Source: Prochlorococcus sp. AG-436-J02
GTDB taxonomy: Bacteria; Cyanobacteriota; Cyanobacteriia; PCC-6307; Cyanobiaceae
Length of the DNA: 64,000 nucleotides
Reading direction: 5' to 3'
Assembly (NCBI GenBank): GCA_003212625.1
Contig: QCPI01000002.1
Coordinates: 50,698 to 114,697, forward strand
This document shows, in pieces, positions 9,141 through 51,256 of the stretch; the stretch's first letter is position 1; each line of letters opens with the position of its first letter. Made by a program: the position numbers and the translations under genes. Under the pieces are notes generated by a model. The model was given only the letters and a program-made list of their open reading frames with translations. It did no database searches and was not told the DNA's origin.

Positions 9141-9386
9141 GTGAATCAGAACAGAGCTTGTCTTCATTTTGTCAGAAATTGTGATTTATATAAGATTGGA
9201 ATAACAACAAGTTTTGAGAGGTGGATGCGACAAATTAAGCTAGATAATTTTGTTGCTAAATTATATTATACGGTTTTTAAGTTATTATAAAAGCAATTTA
9301 ATAAAAGATATAAAGTTATCCAAATTCCACAAACGGAGTATTTTCGATTAGATCAGTAACAGATTAGAGAGATAAAAAATTATTAG
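9141..9386 (+). pseudogene. Degenerate GIY-YIG-family endonuclease-like remnant with two in-frame TAA codons
   Basis: One frame reads VNQNRACLHFVRNCDLYKIGITTSFERWMRQIKLDNFVAKLYYTVFKLL*KQFNKRYKVIQIPQTEYFRLDQ*QIREIKNY*. Confidence 0.65.
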
Positions 9387-9707
9387 TAGATATGTTTCAA
9401 TAACTATTACTTCTTTTATTTTTTTATTCTATTTCTTTATTTTCAGTATTATTTTTTCTTGTATTATTTTTTAAAATCTTAGCTAGTAATGATATGAGTG
9501 ATGCTTTATATGGATCACTTTTATAGAAGGTGTGGTTTCATTTTGCTTATCATTTTTCTCTATAGTTATTAATTCAAATATATATATTAGCTTGTTGAAT
9601 GAATTAAAGTTTATGTTATCAAGATTTGCATTTTATTTTTGTCTGCTTTACTGTTTAGATATTCTTCAAGACTTTTCTTTTGATTTTATAATTATTCTTT
9701 TTGATAA

Positions 9708-10082
9708 TCAATCTTCCCACATGTCTTTGCTTGATTTTTCTTCTTGTTGCTGTTGTTTAAGAAGCTTTAGCCTTTTATCAAATTCAATTTCTTCTGGACT
9801 TTTTGATTCTACTTTTTTATTTTTGGAGTATTTTGCTTTAACTTCAATTATCTTGTTAGTTAATTCATCTGTAAAATGTTCTTTTATTTCTGCCCATGCT
9901 TCTTTCTCCTCAGCGTGGCCAACCGTTCCTTTTACTTGGTCAATGATTATGTCTCTTACAAATAATCGCAGATCCTTCTCTGACATTGAGTTTACACGAC
10001 TGGAGATATACATATCTTTTAGTGCATCTAATTCGATATCAGTTAGATCCTTATAGGTTAGCTCTTCCATTTTTTTAGGCAT
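9708..10082 (-). CDS. Hypothetical charged protein
   Basis: Clean ORF MPKKMEELTYKDLTDIELDALKDMYISSR...; preferred over the low-complexity antisense ORF 9532..10056. Confidence 0.6.
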   Translation of the reverse strand: MPKKMEELTYKDLTDIELDALKDMYISSRVNSMSEKDLRLFVRDIIIDQVKGTVGHAEEKEAWAEIKEHFTDELTNKIIEVKAKYSKNKKVESKSPEEIEFDKRLKLLKQQQQEEKSSKDMWED

Positions 10083-15534: not shown

Positions 15535-16227
15535 TTGAATAAGCATATTATAGCTATCGGAGGGGGCGGTTTTGGTAGAAATACTTCGTCCTTTTTGATA
15601 GAGAAATATATAATTAGTCTTTCTCCTAATGATTGTCCTAGGATATGTTTCTTACCTACAGCTACAGGTGACAATGATAGCTATATAGTTCGCTTTTATT
15701 CTGTTTTTACACGTTTAAATTGTCAACCTACCCATTTAGATTTCTTTAAGAGGACTGTTGATATAAATTCTCATATTATGAATCAAGATATTATTTTTGT
15801 TGGAGGTGGTAATACTAAAAGTATGATAGCTGTTTGGAAGGAATGGGGGATGAACAATTTTCTTAGGAAAGCTTATGATGAAGGAGTAATAATGAGTGGT
15901 GTCAGCGCAGGAGCAATTTGTTGGTTTACAAATGGAATTACCGATTCATGGGAGAATGAATTGCAAATTTTACCCTGCTTAGATTTTATAAATGGTACAT
16001 GTTGTCCCCATTACGATGAAGAACCATCACGGAAGCCATTTGTAAATAAAGTCCTTAGAGAAGGCATAATATCTAATTGTATTTCGATTGATGGCGGTTC
16101 AGCTATGCATTTTATAGACGGGAAGCCTTTTAAAAATATTTCTTTTAAAGCTAATAAAAATTCTTATAATTGTTCCTATAACAATGATAAAGTTATTCAA
16201 AAACCTTTTCCTATTTTTCAATTGTAA
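15535..16227 (+). CDS. Peptidase S51 (peptidase E / dipeptidase E-like)
   Basis: IIAIGGGGFG, FVGGGNTKSMIAVW, SGVSAGAICWF; TTG start. Confidence 0.85.
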   Translation: MNKHIIAIGGGGFGRNTSSFLIEKYIISLSPNDCPRICFLPTATGDNDSYIVRFYSVFTRLNCQPTHLDFFKRTVDINSHIMNQDIIFVGGGNTKSMIAVWKEWGMNNFLRKAYDEGVIMSGVSAGAICWFTNGITDSWENELQILPCLDFINGTCCPHYDEEPSRKPFVNKVLREGIISNCISIDGGSAMHFIDGKPFKNISFKANKNSYNCSYNNDKVIQKPFPIFQL

Positions 16228-24539: not shown

Positions 24540-26279
24540 TTACAAATTACTCGAAATAAATTGTTTATCGAAGAAATCTTTATAGCGTCCTTTTTGCTTA
24601 ATTAAATCATTGTGGTTCCCAACCTCGCTTACTTTCCCACTTTCTATTACAGCAATTTTATTTGCGTTTTGTACTGTTGACAATCTGTGTGCAATTACCA
24701 AGACGGTTCTATTATCCATTGCTTGTTTAAGACCTTTTTGAACAGATGCTTCTGCTTCCACATCAAGAGCACTTGTAGCTTCATCTAATAGTAAAATTGT
24801 GGGATCACCTAAGATTGCCCTTGCTATTGAAATTCTTTGTAGTTGACCCCCTGAAAGATTTGCGCCTCTTTCTTCTATAAAAGTTTCATAGCCATCAGGA
24901 AGTTGTTCAATAAAATTATGGGCATTTGCAATTTTGGCTGCTTTAATAATTTTATCTTTACTTGTGGGTCTTCCAAACTTTATCGCTTCAGATATTGTCC
25001 CGGAAAAAATAAAGGTTTTTTGAGGAACTATTGCGATTAAATTTCTTAATATTTTTGTATTTATTTTATTTAAATTATAGCCATCAATAAATATGTTGCC
25101 TTGACTAGGTTCGATAAATTTTAATATTAAGGAGAATATAGTACTTTTGCCTGCGCCTGAAGGTCCAACAAGTGCAACAATTTCACCTTTACCTATTTTT
25201 AAATTGATATTATTTAAAACTTGATTATTTGCAATATACGAAAAAAATACATTACTAAATACTATTTCACCATTAATATTTTTAGGATGTATCTCTTGTT
25301 TTGAGTTTGATATTTCTATTGGGTTTATTGTTATTTCGTTTAACCTTTTTAGTGATGCCTGTCCTTGCTTTAACTCATTATAATTAGTAGTTATATGACT
25401 TATAGGATCAATTAACATCAATAGTGCAGTGAAATAACTTCCAAACTCTTCGTTTGAGATATCACCCGTTTGTATTCTATAAGTTCCAATGGCAAGGATA
25501 GTTAGAATTCCAATTATTTCTATTAGTCCAACTATTGGATGTTGAAGGGCTACAAGTCGAAGCATTCTATATTTTGCTTTTTTGTGTAAATTAACTTGTT
25601 TATCAAAATTCTTTTGCAACCATTCTTCAACAGCGAATGCTTTAACCATAGGAAGGCCTTGAATTGCTTCTGATAGCAAGCCTGCTAATGAACTGATTTT
25701 ACTTTGACTCTGTTCAGCTGCTTTTAATACTCTTGCTCCAAAATCACTAACTAATAATGCAATTATTGGGGCTAGAATTATAGTTGCAAGTGATAAATTC
25801 CAATCAATAAATATCATATAACCAAATACCACTAACAATTGAAATACTGATGGAGTTGTATCTTGAATTGTTTTATATATCACTTCTCCTACTCGATCAA
25901 CATCTTCTGTAAGTCTGTATGCGATATCACCTGAGGAGAACTTTTCTATAAAAAGTATATTGGTCTTTTGTAGCTTTCTAAATAACGTTGTCCTAAGGTC
26001 TTGACTTAATGCTAATGATGGTTTTGCAAGAAGACTATCTTGAAGATATTGTGCGATTTTTTGAATTATAAAAACTAATAAAGCTTGAACTATTACCTTT
26101 AGAACTTGACTGGTATTTCCTTGTCCAATTGCTGGGATAAGTTTTCCTGCTAACCAAGCTAGTAGTGGCCAACAGCTTACATAAACAAGCATGCTGATCC
26201 CACCCATTATCAATACTGGTATGTGTCCCTTCAGCCTCCGTATAAGGTAAGTAAAATTAATTTTGTTTTTTTTATTCAT
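24540..26279 (-). CDS. ABC exporter, fused permease and ATPase (MsbA-like)
   Basis: Walker A GPSGAGKST, LSGGQ signature, LLLDEATSALD, N-terminal TM domain. Confidence 0.93.
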   Translation of the reverse strand: MNKKNKINFTYLIRRLKGHIPVLIMGGISMLVYVSCWPLLAWLAGKLIPAIGQGNTSQVLKVIVQALLVFIIQKIAQYLQDSLLAKPSLALSQDLRTTLFRKLQKTNILFIEKFSSGDIAYRLTEDVDRVGEVIYKTIQDTTPSVFQLLVVFGYMIFIDWNLSLATIILAPIIALLVSDFGARVLKAAEQSQSKISSLAGLLSEAIQGLPMVKAFAVEEWLQKNFDKQVNLHKKAKYRMLRLVALQHPIVGLIEIIGILTILAIGTYRIQTGDISNEEFGSYFTALLMLIDPISHITTNYNELKQGQASLKRLNEITINPIEISNSKQEIHPKNINGEIVFSNVFFSYIANNQVLNNINLKIGKGEIVALVGPSGAGKSTIFSLILKFIEPSQGNIFIDGYNLNKINTKILRNLIAIVPQKTFIFSGTISEAIKFGRPTSKDKIIKAAKIANAHNFIEQLPDGYETFIEERGANLSGGQLQRISIARAILGDPTILLLDEATSALDVEAEASVQKGLKQAMDNRTVLVIAHRLSTVQNANKIAVIESGKVSEVGNHNDLIKQKGRYKDFFDKQFISSNL

Positions 26280-26317
26280 TCCATCAAACTAACAATGTTT
26301 AACTTAAAAGCACGTAA

Positions 26318-26536
26318 ATGAAATTAGATCAATTTCTTAAGTTGGTTGGAATCGTTCAAACTGGTGGGGAAGCTAAATTGATTATCAGATCAGGAAAAAT
26401 AACCGTAAATGGCATAGTGGAAAATAGAAGAGGTAGAAAATTAGTTGATGGTGATCAAATTATTTTTGCTAATGAAACATACATTGTTCCAAATTCTGAT
26501 CCTCTAGGCCGTAAGTTGGCATTGAGTGAAAAATGA
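26318..26536 (+). CDS. S4-domain RNA-binding protein (YbcJ-like)
   Basis: [46 protein letters not shown]. Confidence 0.82.
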
Positions 26537-27282
26537 GGAACTACGTGCGTAAACCCGTAATCGCAGGGAATTGGAAGATGAATATGACATGTACTGAGTC
26601 TATTGAGTACATGCGCGTATTAATTCCATTACTGAAAGACATACCTAAAGATAGGGAAATTGTTATTGCCCCTCCATTTACAGCTATTTACCCTTTATCC
26701 GAGTTTATTAAGGGAACCAGCGAGTCACTTTATTTATCCAGTCAAAATGTTCACTGGGAGGATAGCGGTGCCTATACGGCTGAAGTCTCACCTCTAATGC
26801 TTAATGAACTTTCGGTTAAATGTGCAATAGTTGGTCATAGTGAACCACGAAAATATTTTAGTGAGAGTGATGAGCAAATAAATAAGAGAGCGCAATCTGC
26901 CCAAGATCATCAATTAATTCCCATTGTCTGTGTAGGTGAAACTTTTCAACAAAGAGAGCTTGGAGAGGCAGAAAGAGTTATTAGAAGGCAGATTGATCAA
27001 GGACTTGAAGGCATTGATGTTAAAAGATTAATAGTCGCTTATGAACCAATTTGGGCAATTGGAACAGGAAAAACATGCGCAGCTAATGAAGCAAATAGAA
27101 TTTGCGGACTTATACGTAAATGGATTGGTTTCGAAGACGTTATAATTCAATATGGTGGATCAGTTAAATCTAGTAATATTGATGAAATAATGTCTATGTC
27201 AGATATTGATGGTGTATTAGTTGGTGGAGCTTCTTTAGATCCTATAAGTTTTGCGAGAATTGCAAATTACGAAACAATCTAG
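26533..27282 (+). CDS. tpiA: Triosephosphate isomerase
   Basis: [45 protein letters not shown]. Confidence 0.96.
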
Positions 27283-28102
27283 TAATCACTTGCTGAAATA
27301 TTGGGAATGCGACACCAATATATTGGCAATAATCAATATTACTAATGATTCATTTAGTGATGGAGGGCTTTTTATTGATTTCACCTCGGCTATTGAGTAT
27401 GCATGTTTATGTGTTAAAAATGGTGCGAAAGTATTAGATTTAGGTGCACAAAGTACTAGACCTGGAGCAGTTGAGGTTGGTGCAGAATTAGAAATTAAAA
27501 GACTAATCCCAATAATTAAGGAACTAAAACTAATACATCCTGATATACAGCTTTCTATTGATACCTTTCATCATTCTGTTGCTAAAACTTGTTTAAATGC
27601 TGGTGCAGATTGGGTTAATGATATTAGTGGTGGGCGCCATGACCCTGAGATATTTAATGTCATTGCTGATTATGAATGCCCATATGTCTTAACCCATAGT
27701 CGTGGAAATAGTATGACAATGGATTCTCTTGCGAAATATAATAATATTGTTATGGATGTGAAAAATGAATTATCAAATCAAATTGAACTAGCTTTTTCTG
27801 CTGGTGTTAAAGCAAAACAAATTATCATTGATCCAGGTATAGGTTTTGCAAAAAATGTTGATCAAAATTTGAGTTTGCTAAGAAATTTAGAAGAATTTGT
27901 ATCAATGAATTATCCAGTATTAGTAGGTCCCTCCAGAAAGAGATTTATAGGTTTTGTTATTAATGAATCTCATCCTAATAATAGAATATTTGGAACAGCA
28001 GCTGTTGCCTCTAGATGTGTTATTGCTGGAGTTAATTTTCTAAGAGTTCATGATATTAAAGAAATTTCTCAAGTTATAAAAATGACTAAGTCAATAATTT
28101 AA
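27251..28102 (+). CDS. folP: Dihydropteroate synthase
   Basis: [55 protein letters not shown]. Confidence 0.94.
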
Positions 28103-28111
28103 TTATTAAAG

Positions 28112-31100
28112 CTAATCTTCTGTATTAACTCCTTCAATTCTATCTTCTACTTCTTGATAGAGCTCTTTTAATTGTTCTATATTTTCCTCTGATGTTTCCC
28201 AATATCCTCTTCCATTAACTTCTAGTAATGTTCCAACAATTCTTCTAAAACTATGTGGATTTAACTCCATTAATCTTTTCCTCATTTCAGGATCATTTAT
28301 AAATGTTTCATTTGACTCTTCATATACAAAATTATCAACCTGTCCGCTAGTTGCACTCCAACCCAATGTGTAATTAAGACGGTTTGAAACCTCTCTTACA
28401 CCTTCATAACCAGACTTAAGCATTCCTTCATACCATTTTGGATTAAGTAATTTTGTTCTTGAATCCAATCTAATTGTTTCACTTAAAGACCTAACCTGAG
28501 CATTTGCTGTTGTTGTATCTGCTATATAGCTGCTTGGAGCTTTACCATCATCTCTTAGGTTTTTAATTAAATTTGTTGGATCTGAATCAAAATAATGACT
28601 CACATCTGTTAATGAAATTTCTGATGAATCAAGGTTTTGAAATGTAACATCAGCAGTTTTCATAACTGATTCAAAAACATCTCTATTTTGATTCATTTCT
28701 CCGGGGTTATCAGCATTGAAGGCGTATGTTTTTCTTGATAGATACATTTCTTGTAATTCATTTTCTTCTTCCCACGTTGAATTCTCTACTGCAAGATTTA
28801 CATTTGAGCTATAACTTCCACTTGCATTTGAGAAAACTCTGCTTGCAGATTCTCTAATTGATTTACCTTCTTTTTCAGCCTGTTCAATTGTATGTTTTCT
28901 TACGAAATTTTGTTCGACAGGCTCTTCTGCTTCTGCGGCCATTTTTACTGCTTGATCTATTAATGCCATTTGATTAATAAATAAATCCCTGAAAACACCG
29001 GAGCAATTAACTACAACATCAATTCTTGGACGTCCTAATTCCTCAAGAGGAATTAGTTCTAACTTGTTAACTCTTCCAACAGAATCTGGTTTGGGTTTTA
29101 CTCCAACAAACCAAAGTATTTGAGCTAATGACTCACCATAAGTTTTGATGTTGTCAGTACCCCATAGAACACATGCAATAGTTTCAGGCCATGTGCCTTG
29201 TTCCTCTTTTTGTCTCTCGATAAGCTTGTCTACAACACCTTTAGCTGATGCAACTGCAGCTACAGTAGGAATTGATTGAGGATCTAATGCATGAATATTT
29301 TTACCACTAGGTAACACACCAGGGTTTCTTATTGGATCTCCACCTGGACCTGGAAGTACATAATCCCCATCTAAAGCTTTTAAAAGGCTCTCCATTTCCT
29401 TGTCTGCACAAATCTGCTCTAAACAAAATCGTAAATAATCAAATAATTTATCTAAGGAATTTGAATTTACTTTTTCAAATCCTGCTTTTCTTGTTGCTGC
29501 TATCCATGGTGAGGGTATAGAAAATCCAATACTTCTTAAGAATTCAATAAATAACGTCCATAGACTCTTCTTCATATTTACTCTTCCATCTCTTCCTGTT
29601 AAGGCTTTAACCATTGAACTAACAGCTTCTCTGGAAGTATCAGTAATTGATTTATTTAGTTCAACATCTTCTAATTTGCCTTTGTTGTTTCCCTCATAAA
29701 CTTCTTCTATCTTTTTCCCTTTTGATTCTGCTAGTAAACCTGGTAATGATCTGATTCCATCATCTTCCCTTTCTATTGATGCGATACTTACCAATGTCGC
29801 TATTGCTTCTTCAGCTGTAGCTGGTTTACCAATAGTATGCAAACCACAAGGCAATAATCTACTTTCAATTTCCATTAATTGTTTATAAACATTACCCACA
29901 ACTAAATCTCTTTCATCTATTCCTAATTCAGAAGCATCTTTTTTTGGTAGCTTTACATCTTCATCTAAATTACATTTCTTTGATGTTTCAATTATCGCGT
30001 TGACGATTTGAATTCCTCTTCCACTCTCTCGTAATTGTTGGTAAGAACCTACTAATTCGCCAAGTTCTTTTAATCCTTTATAAAGTCCAGCATTTTCTGC
30101 AGGCGGGGTTAAATAACTAATTGTTGATGCATATCCTCTTCTTTTAGCAATTGTTGCTTCAGAAGGATTATTTGCTGCGTAGTAATAAAGATTTGGTAGA
30201 CCACCAATTAATGAATCTGGATAGCAAGTCTCACTCATTCCCATTTGTTTCCCGGGCATGAATTCGAGTGAGCCATGGGTTCCAAAATGTAAAACAGCGT
30301 CTGCTTTCCAGACTTTTTCTAAATAGGTGTAATAAGCAGCAAAACCATGATGAGGACTTGCACTTCTAGAATAAAGCAATCTCATTGGATCCCCTTCGTA
30401 TCCAAAGGTTGGTTGTACTCCTACAAATACATTCCCAAACTCTTTTCCATAGACAAGAAGATTTTGTCCATCACTATTTAAATTTCCAGGTGGTTTTCCC
30501 CAGTTTTCTTCTAATCGTTCAGAGTATGGAGTTAACTTTTCATATTCTTTAACACTCATTCGATGTGCTATTGATAATTCTGGTGAACCCTGTAATGCCT
30601 CAGGATCATTTATTAATGCCTCCATTAGTTCTTTAGGGTTTTTAGGTAAATTATTAATTACATATCCTTGTTTTTTCATTTCTTGAAGAACTCTATGAAT
30701 TGATCCAAATACATCAAGATATGCCGCCGTTCCGACGTTTCCTTTGTCTGGTGGAAAACTAAATACAGTAATAGCTAGTTTCTTTTGGTCACGTTTTTTA
30801 ATTCTTAGTGATGACCATCTAATTGCTCTTTCAGCTATTGCATCTACACGATCTTGAAGAGTGTGAGCTTTTCCAGTTGCATCATCTCTTCCTGATAAAA
30901 CAATTGGCTCTATAGCACCATCTAATTCTGGAATAGCAATTTGTAATGCAACTTGAACTGGATGAAGTCCTAAATCACTACCTTCCCATTCTTGAGTTGT
31001 TTGAAAAACCAATGGCAAGGCAACCATATATGGTCTATTAAGTTTTTTTAATGATTCAATTGCTTTTGGATGATCCTGTCTTGCTGGGCCACCTACAAGT

Positions 31101-36240: not shown

Positions 36241-36852
36241 ATGATTAACTTAACCTATAGATTTGCTCAAGATTCATCTTCTTTAGAACTTTCAGGTATA
36301 CCTGATGTATCAAATGGAGATGCTGAAGATACTATTGGGATCCTATCCTCGTGGACCTTAAAGATTATAGGATCACCTCTGTTGGAGGGGGAAAAGGATC
36401 ATCTTGATAATTTGATGGATGTTATTCTTAAATATTCAAGATCGTACATCTCTGGCATTCGAAATACTTATATATCTAATAAAAATATTGTAACAATTAA
36501 ACCTTTTGGTCTTTATCATAAATTAATACTTAATAGTACAAAGGAAGGAGTAAAACCTTTGGAAATCGTTTTGGATGACTCCGAACTAGCAGATATCACT
36601 AGATGTCTAGATCTTCTAAGATTTGACCATAGATTTAATATAAAATGGAATATTAAATTAGACAGGCCTTTTAGTAAGAGATATATTAATATTAATTTTA
36701 AGAAGTCAAAAAAGAATTTAAACTTTTTTTATTCCCTTATTTTTTTCCTTTCGACTAGTGCCTTATTAACATTACTTCCAATTAACAACAAATTCGAACC
36801 AATAATTGAAAATAATGCATCTCAAGATCTGTCTGAGCGTTTAAATAACTAA
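36241..36852 (+). CDS. DUF4335-like protein
   Basis: NLTYRFAQDSSSLELSG...PLLEGEKDHLDNLMDVILKYSRSYISG; C-terminal TM. Confidence 0.7.
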   Translation: MINLTYRFAQDSSSLELSGIPDVSNGDAEDTIGILSSWTLKIIGSPLLEGEKDHLDNLMDVILKYSRSYISGIRNTYISNKNIVTIKPFGLYHKLILNSTKEGVKPLEIVLDDSELADITRCLDLLRFDHRFNIKWNIKLDRPFSKRYININFKKSKKNLNFFYSLIFFLSTSALLTLLPINNKFEPIIENNASQDLSERLNN

Positions 36853-36949
36853 CAATATTCTTTTTTAGTTATTTAGATATGTTATTATGTTATTTAAATC
36901 ATATTATTATACCAATACCTTATAAAATTAATAAAGTAAATTATATTGA

Positions 36950-37600
36950 ATGAAACTTTCAAATAGTGATAGGGATAAAATCGATTTTACTGATGATAAT
37001 TTGTTTTATCTTCAGCCAAGATATGTTCATCATCTAAGCCTTTCATTTAGAACTCGACTTACAAAATTATATTCAGAATATCTTTACAGCCATCATGTGG
37101 TTTTAGATCTTATGAGTAGTTGGGTAAGTCATCTGCCTACTAATATTCGATTTAAAAAAGTAATAGGTCATGGAATGAATTCTTCTGAATTAAGCGCTAA
37201 TAATAGGCTTGATAGCTTTTGGGTTCAAAATTTAAATAAGACTCAAAATATCCCAATAGAAGATTCAACTGTTGATATTTGCTTGATTGTAGCGGGATGG
37301 CAATACCTGCAATATCCTGAAAATGTTACTCTAGAACTATCAAGGATTATAAAATCAGATTCCTTATTAATTATTTCATTCACTAATCGAGCATTTTGGA
37401 CTAAGTCTCCCAATATCTGGTCTAATTCATCAGAGGATAGAAGAATTGAATACGTAAGTAGTGTTCTCTCCGACAATGGCTGGATTGTTCAAAAGATCAT
37501 AAATGAAAGGACTTTTGATAATAAGCTATTTGGTTTATATTCCAGAGAAAGCGATCCTTTTTTTTCTGTTATTGCCAGAAATAATAAGTCTAATAACTGA
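36950..37600 (+). CDS. SAM-dependent methyltransferase-like protein
   Basis: HVVLDLMSSWVSHLP, IPIEDSTVDICLIVAGWQYLQYPENVTLELSRIIK. Confidence 0.72.
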   Translation: MKLSNSDRDKIDFTDDNLFYLQPRYVHHLSLSFRTRLTKLYSEYLYSHHVVLDLMSSWVSHLPTNIRFKKVIGHGMNSSELSANNRLDSFWVQNLNKTQNIPIEDSTVDICLIVAGWQYLQYPENVTLELSRIIKSDSLLIISFTNRAFWTKSPNIWSNSSEDRRIEYVSSVLSDNGWIVQKIINERTFDNKLFGLYSRESDPFFSVIARNNKSNN

Positions 37601-47245: not shown

Positions 47246-47701
47246 TTAGTTAGATCCTATCCATTTTTGACCATTTAATCTCTGAAGAACTCTGGAAATC
47301 AATAGAGCTAATGTTGTCTTTTTCTCATCAATTAAAAATGACTCAACAATGCTTGGATCGGAATTTGATTCCGCTAATAATATTGTCTTATCCGAGGTTA
47401 TGAAATCCTTACTAAAACAAAGCCAGAATTTCCTATCTGTTGTCAATTCACAAAAAACCATCCAACATTCTCCTCCTACTACAGGTCTTTTGCCATGTAA
47501 TAATTTTATAGCTTTTACTTCTACACCTTTATCATTAATTGATTTTTTTAAACCAGGAATAAAATAATTTTCTATAAACTCCTCAAAAGGTTTGTCTTCA
47601 ATTTTGGGAGGTTTAATAGTTTTTTTAGGTATACTAGATTTTTCTAATGTTGAAATTTCATTCTTAGTATTTAAATCGTTAGAGGATTTCGGATTTTCCA
47701 T
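47246..47701 (-). CDS. DUF2996-like protein
   Basis: KPFEEFIENYFIPGLKKSINDKG...GGECWMVFCEL. Confidence 0.72.
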   Translation of the reverse strand: MENPKSSNDLNTKNEISTLEKSSIPKKTIKPPKIEDKPFEEFIENYFIPGLKKSINDKGVEVKAIKLLHGKRPVVGGECWMVFCELTTDRKFWLCFSKDFITSDKTILLAESNSDPSIVESFLIDEKKTTLALLISRVLQRLNGQKWIGSN

Positions 47702-47767: not shown

Positions 47768-48361
47768 TTACCAATTTGTATATGAATAATCATCCCAATC
47801 ATTATAGCTTGAACTCTTTTTGTCATTATATTCATAGTCTGTTTGTTCATTAAACTCCTTATTATCATACTCATCTGAATAATCTGAAATTTCAAATGAT
47901 TGAGCTTGATTATATTGATATGCTTCATTCCTCTCTCTTTTTCTACCTATTACCCTAAACCTTGCTTTCATAGTTGGAGATGGATCTTTAGCATCTCTTT
48001 CGATCAAAGTTTTTTGATATGGATTTGTATTAGTTAAATCTAACTTTTCCTTAGGTTCTTCTTCTTCTTCTTCATATTCTTCTTCTTGATTATCAATTTT
48101 ATAGTAACTTAAATTACTCTTCTGTGATTGTATTGTCTTTGCTAGATGAGTTGTAATGAAGTAGGAAAGTATAAAGCCAGTCCCAGTTGATATTGATAGA
48201 TATGTCCCTAATGATAACGTAGGTGTATTCCAAATAAGTATTTGTAATTTTGTTTTCTCCTTTTGATTTGTGATATTTAAAAGAGTAATTACTAGAAATA
48301 CTGAAGCAATAGATATAGACCTTATTAGGTTAGTAAATTTCATTTGTTTGGACCAACCCAT
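47768..48361 (-). CDS. Membrane protein with acidic tail (LapA/DUF1049-like N-terminus)
   Basis: Two TM segments then EEEYEEEEEEPKEKLDL; 22-bp overlap with ubiX. Confidence 0.65.
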   Translation of the reverse strand: MGWSKQMKFTNLIRSISIASVFLVITLLNITNQKEKTKLQILIWNTPTLSLGTYLSISTGTGFILSYFITTHLAKTIQSQKSNLSYYKIDNQEEEYEEEEEEPKEKLDLTNTNPYQKTLIERDAKDPSPTMKARFRVIGRKRERNEAYQYNQAQSFEISDYSDEYDNKEFNEQTDYEYNDKKSSSYNDWDDYSYTNW

Positions 48362-48948
48362 CTATTAATTTTATCTAAATCCTCACCAAGAGAGTCAAAT
48401 AGTCTGACTACTATAAAATCAATTATATCCTCAATGGTTTTTGGGTTTGTATACCAGGCTGGTATTGGTGGAACAATACACGCACCTGCATTAGCAAGTC
48501 GTTTTAAATTTTCTAAATGAATTAAGTTAAAAGGTGATTCTCTTGGGGAAATAATTAATGGCCTGCTTTCTTTTAAATGAACATCTGCACATCTTTCTAT
48601 TAAATCTAATGAAAAGCCAGATGCTATGCGCCCTAATGTTCCCATTGAGCAAGGGACAATAACCATACCCTTTGTTTGATGGCTTCCGCTTGCAATAGAT
48701 GCTGAATGATCATTCCATCTATAACATTTTAATTTTCCTGAATCAACATTTAGTTTATTACGCCAGAAAGCAGCTTGAGCAACTGGTTCTACTGGAATAT
48801 TAATATTACGCTCGCTTTTCGCGACATTGTATGCACCTTTGCTAAGAACTAAATCCACTGTTTTGTCATTTTCAAGCAATAATTGTATAGATCTCTCTCC
48901 CAATTGCATCGCAGATGCACCTGTAATAGCAATAACAATGCTCTTCAT
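48340..48948 (-). CDS. ubiX: Flavin prenyltransferase UbiX
   Basis: IAITGASAMQLGER, GMVIVPCSMGTLGRIASG, IISPRESPFNLIHLENL. Confidence 0.93.
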   Translation of the reverse strand: MKSIVIAITGASAMQLGERSIQLLLENDKTVDLVLSKGAYNVAKSERNINIPVEPVAQAAFWRNKLNVDSGKLKCYRWNDHSASIASGSHQTKGMVIVPCSMGTLGRIASGFSLDLIERCADVHLKESRPLIISPRESPFNLIHLENLKRLANAGACIVPPIPAWYTNPKTIEDIIDFIVVRLFDSLGEDLDKINRWVGPNK

Positions 48949-48952
48949 TTTT

Positions 48953-51256
48953 TTATGTATCTGATGTGATTTCGGGATTGATTTTTATATTGTCTATTAG
49001 ATCAGTCTCTTCATTCCTTACAAGTTCTAAGTCAATTTGATTTTTTAAAATGTCAACTTTCTGTATTTTTACATTAACTTTTTGTGCAAGTTGGTAAGTT
49101 TTCTTATTTTTCCGTCCTATTAAAAGGTTTTGTCTAGATCTATATTCATACCAATCATCTCCTAGAGTACTTACATGAACTAAACCTTCTGCTGTTAAAT
49201 TATCAATCTCTGCAAAGAATCCATAACTTTGAACACCTGTGATGATAGCAGTTAATTCTTTGCCAACTATTTTCTGAGCTTCTCTTCCTTGTGCTATTGA
49301 AATAATATTATTCCTAAGTGACTTTGATTGTTTTCTTATTTCGTTAAGATGTTGAATTAATTTTATATTTATATTTTTTTCAATTGTATCTTTTATCTTA
49401 TTAGAAAAAACCTCCCAATTTACTTGATTCCAAGAATCTTTTTTACCTAATGAAATAGATTCCTTTGTTCGATTAGAGCTTTTATTTTTACCATCATTTA
49501 AAAGTGAACAAATAATAAATTGATTAACTATATTCCAATAATTTAAGGATGGACTACACCAAGGAGACTCTATATACTTATTAGATAAATTATTTATAAA
49601 ATCATCCTCAGTTATTTCATCATTAGTTTTGAAAAGTTTTAGGTGGATTCCTGGAATTACATGTTTTAATAATTTATGTAATATTCTCTTTTCACTACTC
49701 GTACTAATTGAAGATATTAATTGGTTTGTTGTTAGTGATCCTTCACTATTTAGTATTATATTATTATCTAATGCTAAGGCTGATTTTGTGATTTCGTTTA
49801 TAGATGATTGATCAATTTCCTCGTGTTCTTTATATATAAATGGTAATTTATATCCTATTAAATGCTTGGCTAGGATATTATTTGATAATCTAATGAATAC
49901 ATCTAATATTGATTGAGGATCATCATAATCAAATGTTTTAGCCCAACCGTGAAAATCTCTACTTGGAAATGCTTTTTGTAATTCACTTAATCTTTCTAAA
50001 TCAGGTATGTGTTGATCTAATTTTATAATACTATTTGACTTTGAATAATTAGTTTTGATAAGTGAATAATTGTGTAAATGTGCTCTAAGTTATTTTTTAA
50101 TGGGTTTAAGAGCTATCGGAATTGATTTTGATGTAACTTTTCTTTTGTTTATTGCTATAAGGTGGTTTGTTTTAATTATTTGTACTGGTTTAATTATACT
50201 TAAAGAAAACTTCCAATCTATAACAGTACCTTTGCTATTTATATCTATCATTAGTGATATAGATTCACATGTTTGATCAAGTTTGAATTGAGATGCTGAA
50301 TTGAGAGAGTCATTTAAGAAAGCAAGCCATTTATTACCTAAACATGCAATTTCGCCTTTTTCCTTGAGAAAATTGTCTAATTTACCACCCATATTAATTC
50401 TCTCAGCAACAGCTGGAGAATGGATCCAAAATCTATAACCTCCCTCATGTGGCTCAGCAAAAATTGCTGGTAGAGATGGAGAGTCTGAGCAATCCCAACT
50501 TTGGAATAATAATGTTGGTTGTGTTGTTAAATCTTCTCTACCTTTTAAAGATATTTTTTTAGGTGAAGCTTTGGGAACTTCATCATTCTTAGAAATATTG
50601 TTCTTAGAAAGTAATATTTCTAGATCTCCTTCTAAACCGGAATTTAAAGATAATTCTCTGATTATTTTACCTTTTGCTTTGTATTGAGCAATTGGGTATC
50701 TACTTATTTCTATTTCATAAATTATATCTTTGCTTATTTTATTATCTATTAATACTTTTTCACTTTCGAGTTCAATTACAGATATTATTCTATCATCTAA
50801 GGGATAGGCATTTAGTTTACCGTTTGATTTATTTGATTCTATTTTTGCAAGTAAAATATCATTATATCTTTTTAGAACACATTGAATAGAACCCTCAGGA
50901 GCTCTTCGTTTCTGTGCTTGCTTAGTAATTAATGCAATCACTGAATCGCCATGCCATGCATTATTTAAATTTGACTCTCTTATATAGATGTCTTCCCCTT
51001 GATCTTCTCTAACTACAAAGCAATATCCTTTGCTGCTACATCGTACTCTCCCTTTTATAAAGTCAATCTCACTATTAATAGTTAGTCTTTCATCGTTGTT
51101 ATTTTGGATTATTCCTAGTTTTGCTAGAGCCTTGATTGCTATTCCCAATTTATCTCTATCAAGTTTTTTACTAAGTTTCAATGACTTTTCAAGTTGTGCT
51201 AGTTCTAACCCATCTTCTTTTTCGAGATTGTCTAGAATCTTTGAAACTGTAGTCAT
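48953..51256 (-). pseudogene. RNB-family (RNase II/R-type) exoribonuclease interrupted by in-frame TAA at 50090-50092
   Basis: 388 aa ORF (50090-51256) with OB-like N-terminus and RNB-like region, then 378 further codons in the same frame to TAA at 48953-48955, including S1-like ELTAIITGVQSYGFFAEIDNLTAEGLVHVSTLGDDWYEY; (50090-48953)=3x379. Confidence 0.8.

Follow-up and report, generated by a model that had tools for sequence, protein, structure and literature searches.

A zam gene interrupted by two opposite single-base indels in a Prochlorococcus genome, and its possible recent loss

Zam, the acetazolamide-resistance protein of Synechocystis PCC 6803 and Synechococcus PCC 7002, is composed of the domains CSD1, CSD2, RNB and S1, and it combines a degenerate active site with two redox-active cysteines, C73 and C79 (PMC9145284). 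It is encoded in single copy, with a distinct canonical RNB gene at another genomic location, and zam mutants of both strains are viable, with slower growth and alterations in pigmentation and photosynthesis (PMC9145284). Canonical RNase II/R enzymes, such as RNase R (PDB 8cdu, 5xgu) and Rnb/Rnr of Escherichia coli, contain RNB and S1 domains as well, and in addition the four Mg-binding acids of the RNB motif (D-x5-D-x-D-D). Here, we describe an interrupted gene of this family in Prochlorococcus sp. AG-436-J02, which lies within a stretch of 64,000 nucleotides that was analysed as a whole (the window). The features of the locus are as follows.

48953–51256, minus strand: zam, cyanobacterial RNB-family paralogue, disrupted; 59–73% amino acid identity over the full length to 27 uninterrupted zam genes from the genus, which occupy the same locus next to ubiX
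50093–51256, minus strand: N-terminal open part of 388 codons, comprising CSD1 with Cys73/Cys79, CSD2 and the first part of RNB with degenerate catalytic positions
50093–50098, minus strand: A6 run with the first indel (+1 compared to relatives), from frameshift-aware alignment
50090–50092, minus strand: TAA (codon 389), exposed by the +1 shift
50030–50050, minus strand: second indel (−1), position approximate; frame-restoring, located in an AT-rich linker that leaves the exact base ambiguous
48956–50089, minus strand: C-terminal part without a start codon, comprising the remaining RNB domain and the S1 domain
48340–48948, minus strand: ubiX, intact; separated from the zam stop by four bases on its downstream side

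The sequence identifies the disrupted gene as zam, the cyanobacterial RNB paralogue, located next to ubiX. Pfam analysis of the read-through protein returned OB_RNB, CSD2, RNB and S1, which is the CSD-RNB-S1 order of the Zam clade and the CSD1-CSD2-RNB-S1 order of the described proteins, and the CSD1 cysteines are kept at exactly 73 and 79 in the window as well as in 29/29 relatives. While the protein belongs by sequence to the same family as canonical RNase II/R and shares their RNB and S1 domains, it has none of the four Mg-binding acids that characterize the active enzymes: in the register taken from an alignment to RNase R these positions are occupied by S253, S259, S261 and L262, and the same four columns contain S, S/A/T, S/F/Y/C and L in the 29 relatives. 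An alteration of the catalytic Asp cluster had already been noticed in an earlier note on this DNA, and the acids are indeed absent; this is, however, no sign of decay, since the four residues are nearly alike in all relatives and the altered cluster is thus an old trait of the Zam family (PMC9145284). Against the RNase R model of NCBIfam the protein scores 183 bits, far below the cut-off of 598 bits. The canonical RNB gene of this genome lies on another contig (C38) and is intact across the RNB domain, and a second zam copy was not found elsewhere in this genome, of which the assembly covers only 54%.

The window copy differs from the other family copies listed, which are open to their natural end, by an interruption at codon 389. 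Inspection of open reading frames and translations confirmed what the earlier note had described, namely one in-frame TAA followed by 378 intact codons: in the minus-strand frame 51256–48953 the single internal stop is the TAA at 50092–50090 (codon 389 of 767), and the same frame then remains open for 378 codons up to the TAA at 48955–48953. The chance of such an open stretch at the local composition is p ~3e-13, and the frame past the stop is therefore a real coding remnant. Pfam detects the remaining RNB domain (E = 1e-8) and the S1 domain (E = 3.8e-10) in it, in agreement with the family assignment made earlier; the spacing between the final TAA and the ATG of ubiX is four bases and not five, as had been counted. 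The part following the stop (48956–50089) had been reported to be devoid of Met and of a listed ORF, and this applies to GTG and TTG as well: no in-frame ATG, GTG or TTG, and no ORF beginning with one, is present there. The possibility that the gene is split, with an independent cistron downstream, was rejected because the second part has no start codon and the relatives carry one gene; homologues ending at the same point in front of a separate gene, which the earlier note had named as a counter-indication, are thus not what the relatives contain.

All 27 full-length zam genes of genus relatives are free of internal stops (27/27), and among the ~150 family zam matches listed the window copy is the only one with a stop inside the conserved protein. 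The shorter matches in relatives G030 and G039 are due to contig ends and do not represent truncations, and the two TAAs of the G132 zam mark its natural C-terminal end. As zam is present in 165/167 near-complete genomes of the family and hence nearly universal, its loss is unusual.

The nature of the interruption was analysed by a three-frame alignment of the window against a profile of the genus relatives, using frameshift penalties from −8 to −25. At every penalty tried, the alignment chose a +1 shift at ~50098 and a −1 shift at ~50045; the path with two frameshifts exceeds the in-frame path by ~69 BLOSUM62 units, unpenalised, and the same +1/−1 pair was recovered by a second frameshift scan using fewer relatives. 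In this region the sequence of the relatives is ...ALKPIKDNLEVIYTIIHSSKLIN..NNSIIKLD. The window reads in its first frame ...ALKPIKK(stop)LRAHLHNYSLIKTNYSKSNSIIKLD, without a match to the relatives from the stop to SNSII, and one base along ...KNNLEHIYTIIHLSKLIIQSQ, of which the segment from KNN to KLI is identical to the genus consensus at 14/17 residues. Directly at the stop site the relatives show P-I-K-[DE]-N-L-E-V-I-Y-T, to which the window corresponds (P-I-K-N-N-L-E-H-I-Y-T) only after the +1 shift, and between the indels the conserved protein runs on in another frame (window KNNLEHIYTIIHLSKLI; relatives KDNLEVIYTIIHSSKLI). The shifted frame stops at the TAA at 50023–50025, so that the second shift has to occur before that point; it sits in an AT-rich linker, the length of which varies among relatives as well. 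The long clean frame past the stop is thus accounted for by the second indel, which restores the original frame. These findings refute the earlier explanation by a point nonsense change without indel, e.g., CAA to TAA. Such a mutation fits the first frame, which is open before and after the TAA, but residues 389 to ~408 of that frame have no counterpart in any relative and it is the +1 frame that agrees with all of them, and the alignment of relatives proposed for finding the codon that preceded the TAA placed no sense codon beneath it. We consider a nonsense mutation as next to impossible.

Suppressed or recoded translation had been suggested as another explanation, i.e., a programmed or tolerated event such as slippage at the A6 run, frameshifting or stop readthrough that yields full-length Zam. 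The A6 immediately before the TAA is a slippery context, and the gene has been conserved until now. However, no single recoding event gives the conserved protein: its synthesis would require a +1 shift and then a separate −1 shift within ~50 nt, before the shifted frame ends, and plain readthrough would place ~20 foreign, out-of-frame residues into the RNB domain. A shift or stop at this site is found in 0/27 genus copies and in none of the family copies listed, and since it is shared by no relative it is not a conserved device. Because two independent shifts of opposite sign are required, we regard recoding as very unlikely.

As judged from its sequence, normal selection has acted on zam during almost the whole of its separate history. 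Its amino acid divergence ratio, with relative G001 as the yardstick, is 1.06 and ranks 43 of 83 genes, which is the median, and its codon-position pattern is the same as in the control. Moreover, the mean identity to relatives amounts to 68.3% for the N-terminal and 68.8% for the C-terminal part, so that no differential relaxation between the two halves of zam is seen. Since the rate was normal before the break, the lesion is either recent or not real, and the earlier proposal of a very recent mutation or an assembly error holds in this form.

If the lesion is not real, two single-base indel errors would have arisen by assembly or amplification along a single stretch of low coverage in a single-cell genome, and the true gene would be intact. 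The genome indeed appears to derive from a single amplified cell, as its fragmentation (45 contigs, 54% complete) resembles that of the SAGs (AG-) among the relatives. For a published workflow for single-cell Prochlorococcus genomes ~3 indels per 100 kb were reported in benchmarks (PMC6122165). Provided that this is a single-cell genome, such a rate suffices for two errors somewhere in the stretch, and as it predicts ~3.8 errors in the coding sequence that was scanned, two of them in one bad stretch are quite possible. The opposite sign of the indels and their distance of only ~50 nt would fit one bad stretch, and the otherwise normal purifying selection on a gene that is nearly universal in the family would fit an artefact as well. 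However, inside the other intact conserved genes (~127 kb coding) no clear frame error is seen where ~3.8 are expected at the benchmark rate, and the zam genes of other fragmented genus genomes are free of frame errors. Illumina indel errors are, moreover, uncommon in runs of just 3–6 A.

The underlying frameshift scan covered 128 conserved genes from two contigs of this genome (~42,000 codons, ~127 kb); ORF-length scans for broken genes additionally listed antisense ORFs, which were removed by eye, and the frameshift scan is the cleaner result. Apart from zam, shifts were confined to a single C-terminal tail and to four genes bearing multiple lesions, which encode a DUF3804 protein, an FAD-dependent amine-oxidase-like protein, a PD-(D/E)XK nuclease-like protein and a T5orf172/MUG113 protein, and a clear internal frameshift is seen in none of the other intact conserved genes across ~215 kb of this genome. 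In a control genome that is similarly diverged, the ~44,700 codons contained a single shift, close to a start. This comparison points to true pseudogenes in this genome and to little indel noise. We judge an artefact to be a substantial possibility that falls somewhat short of being probable. If it applies, the locus illustrates that two opposite indels can mimic a nonsense change or recoding by generating a stop with a long open frame behind it.

We hold it moderately probable that two single-base indels of opposite sign, close to each other, disrupted zam very recently in a lineage of Prochlorococcus and that this represents a real loss of function. The lesion is present in this assembly and absent from the orthologues of the genus and from those listed for the family; it probably resides in the cell's own DNA, with Zam function lost. 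The additional base in the A6 run exposes the TAA at codon 389, and the missing base ~50 nt downstream returns the remaining ~360 codons to the original frame; in a real loss, translation would end at residue 388. The predicted product is a 388-residue fragment that would retain both cold-shock domains with the redox cysteines and less than half of the RNB domain, while S1 would be absent; the C-terminal part should not be made, as it contains no start codon. The second indel cannot be a selected compensation because the TAA precedes it. As ubiX starts four bases after zam, the early stop may furthermore affect ubiX translation. A real loss would mean that a cyanobacterial protein of nearly universal occurrence has been knocked out naturally in the most abundant phototroph of the sea, with the break still fresh and within a genome that is still losing genes.

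Prochlorococcus is usually regarded as streamlined with few pseudogenes, and our search of the literature on Prochlorococcus pseudogenes yielded nothing relevant. Whether a living, free-living lineage lost Zam within an ongoing decay that also hits several genus-conserved genes is close to an even call, and we lean slightly against it. Clear cases of decayed conserved genes were not seen within 100 kb of contig C1, and there are almost none in relatives.

On contig C2, to the left of the window, decayed genes that are conserved in relatives are located at 15563–15946, 26245–26450, 26666–28192, 36566–37426 and 47265–47540; they comprise genes for a DUF3804 protein, an 87-aa protein, an amine-oxidase-like FAD protein (mostly gone), a PD-(D/E)XK nuclease-like protein and a thiamine-binding-family protein. 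Inside the window, a remnant of the T5orf172/MUG113-domain gene with several stops and about four frameshifts lies at 9144–9710 on the plus strand. This gene encodes ~180 aa and is intact in G001, G005, G006 and G019; it is decayed in G025, too. Finally, a 182-aa gene that is PyrR-like by eye matches at ~955700 of contig C1 of relative G006 (L097:701-928) with residues 1–76 only, and it may be a further broken gene.
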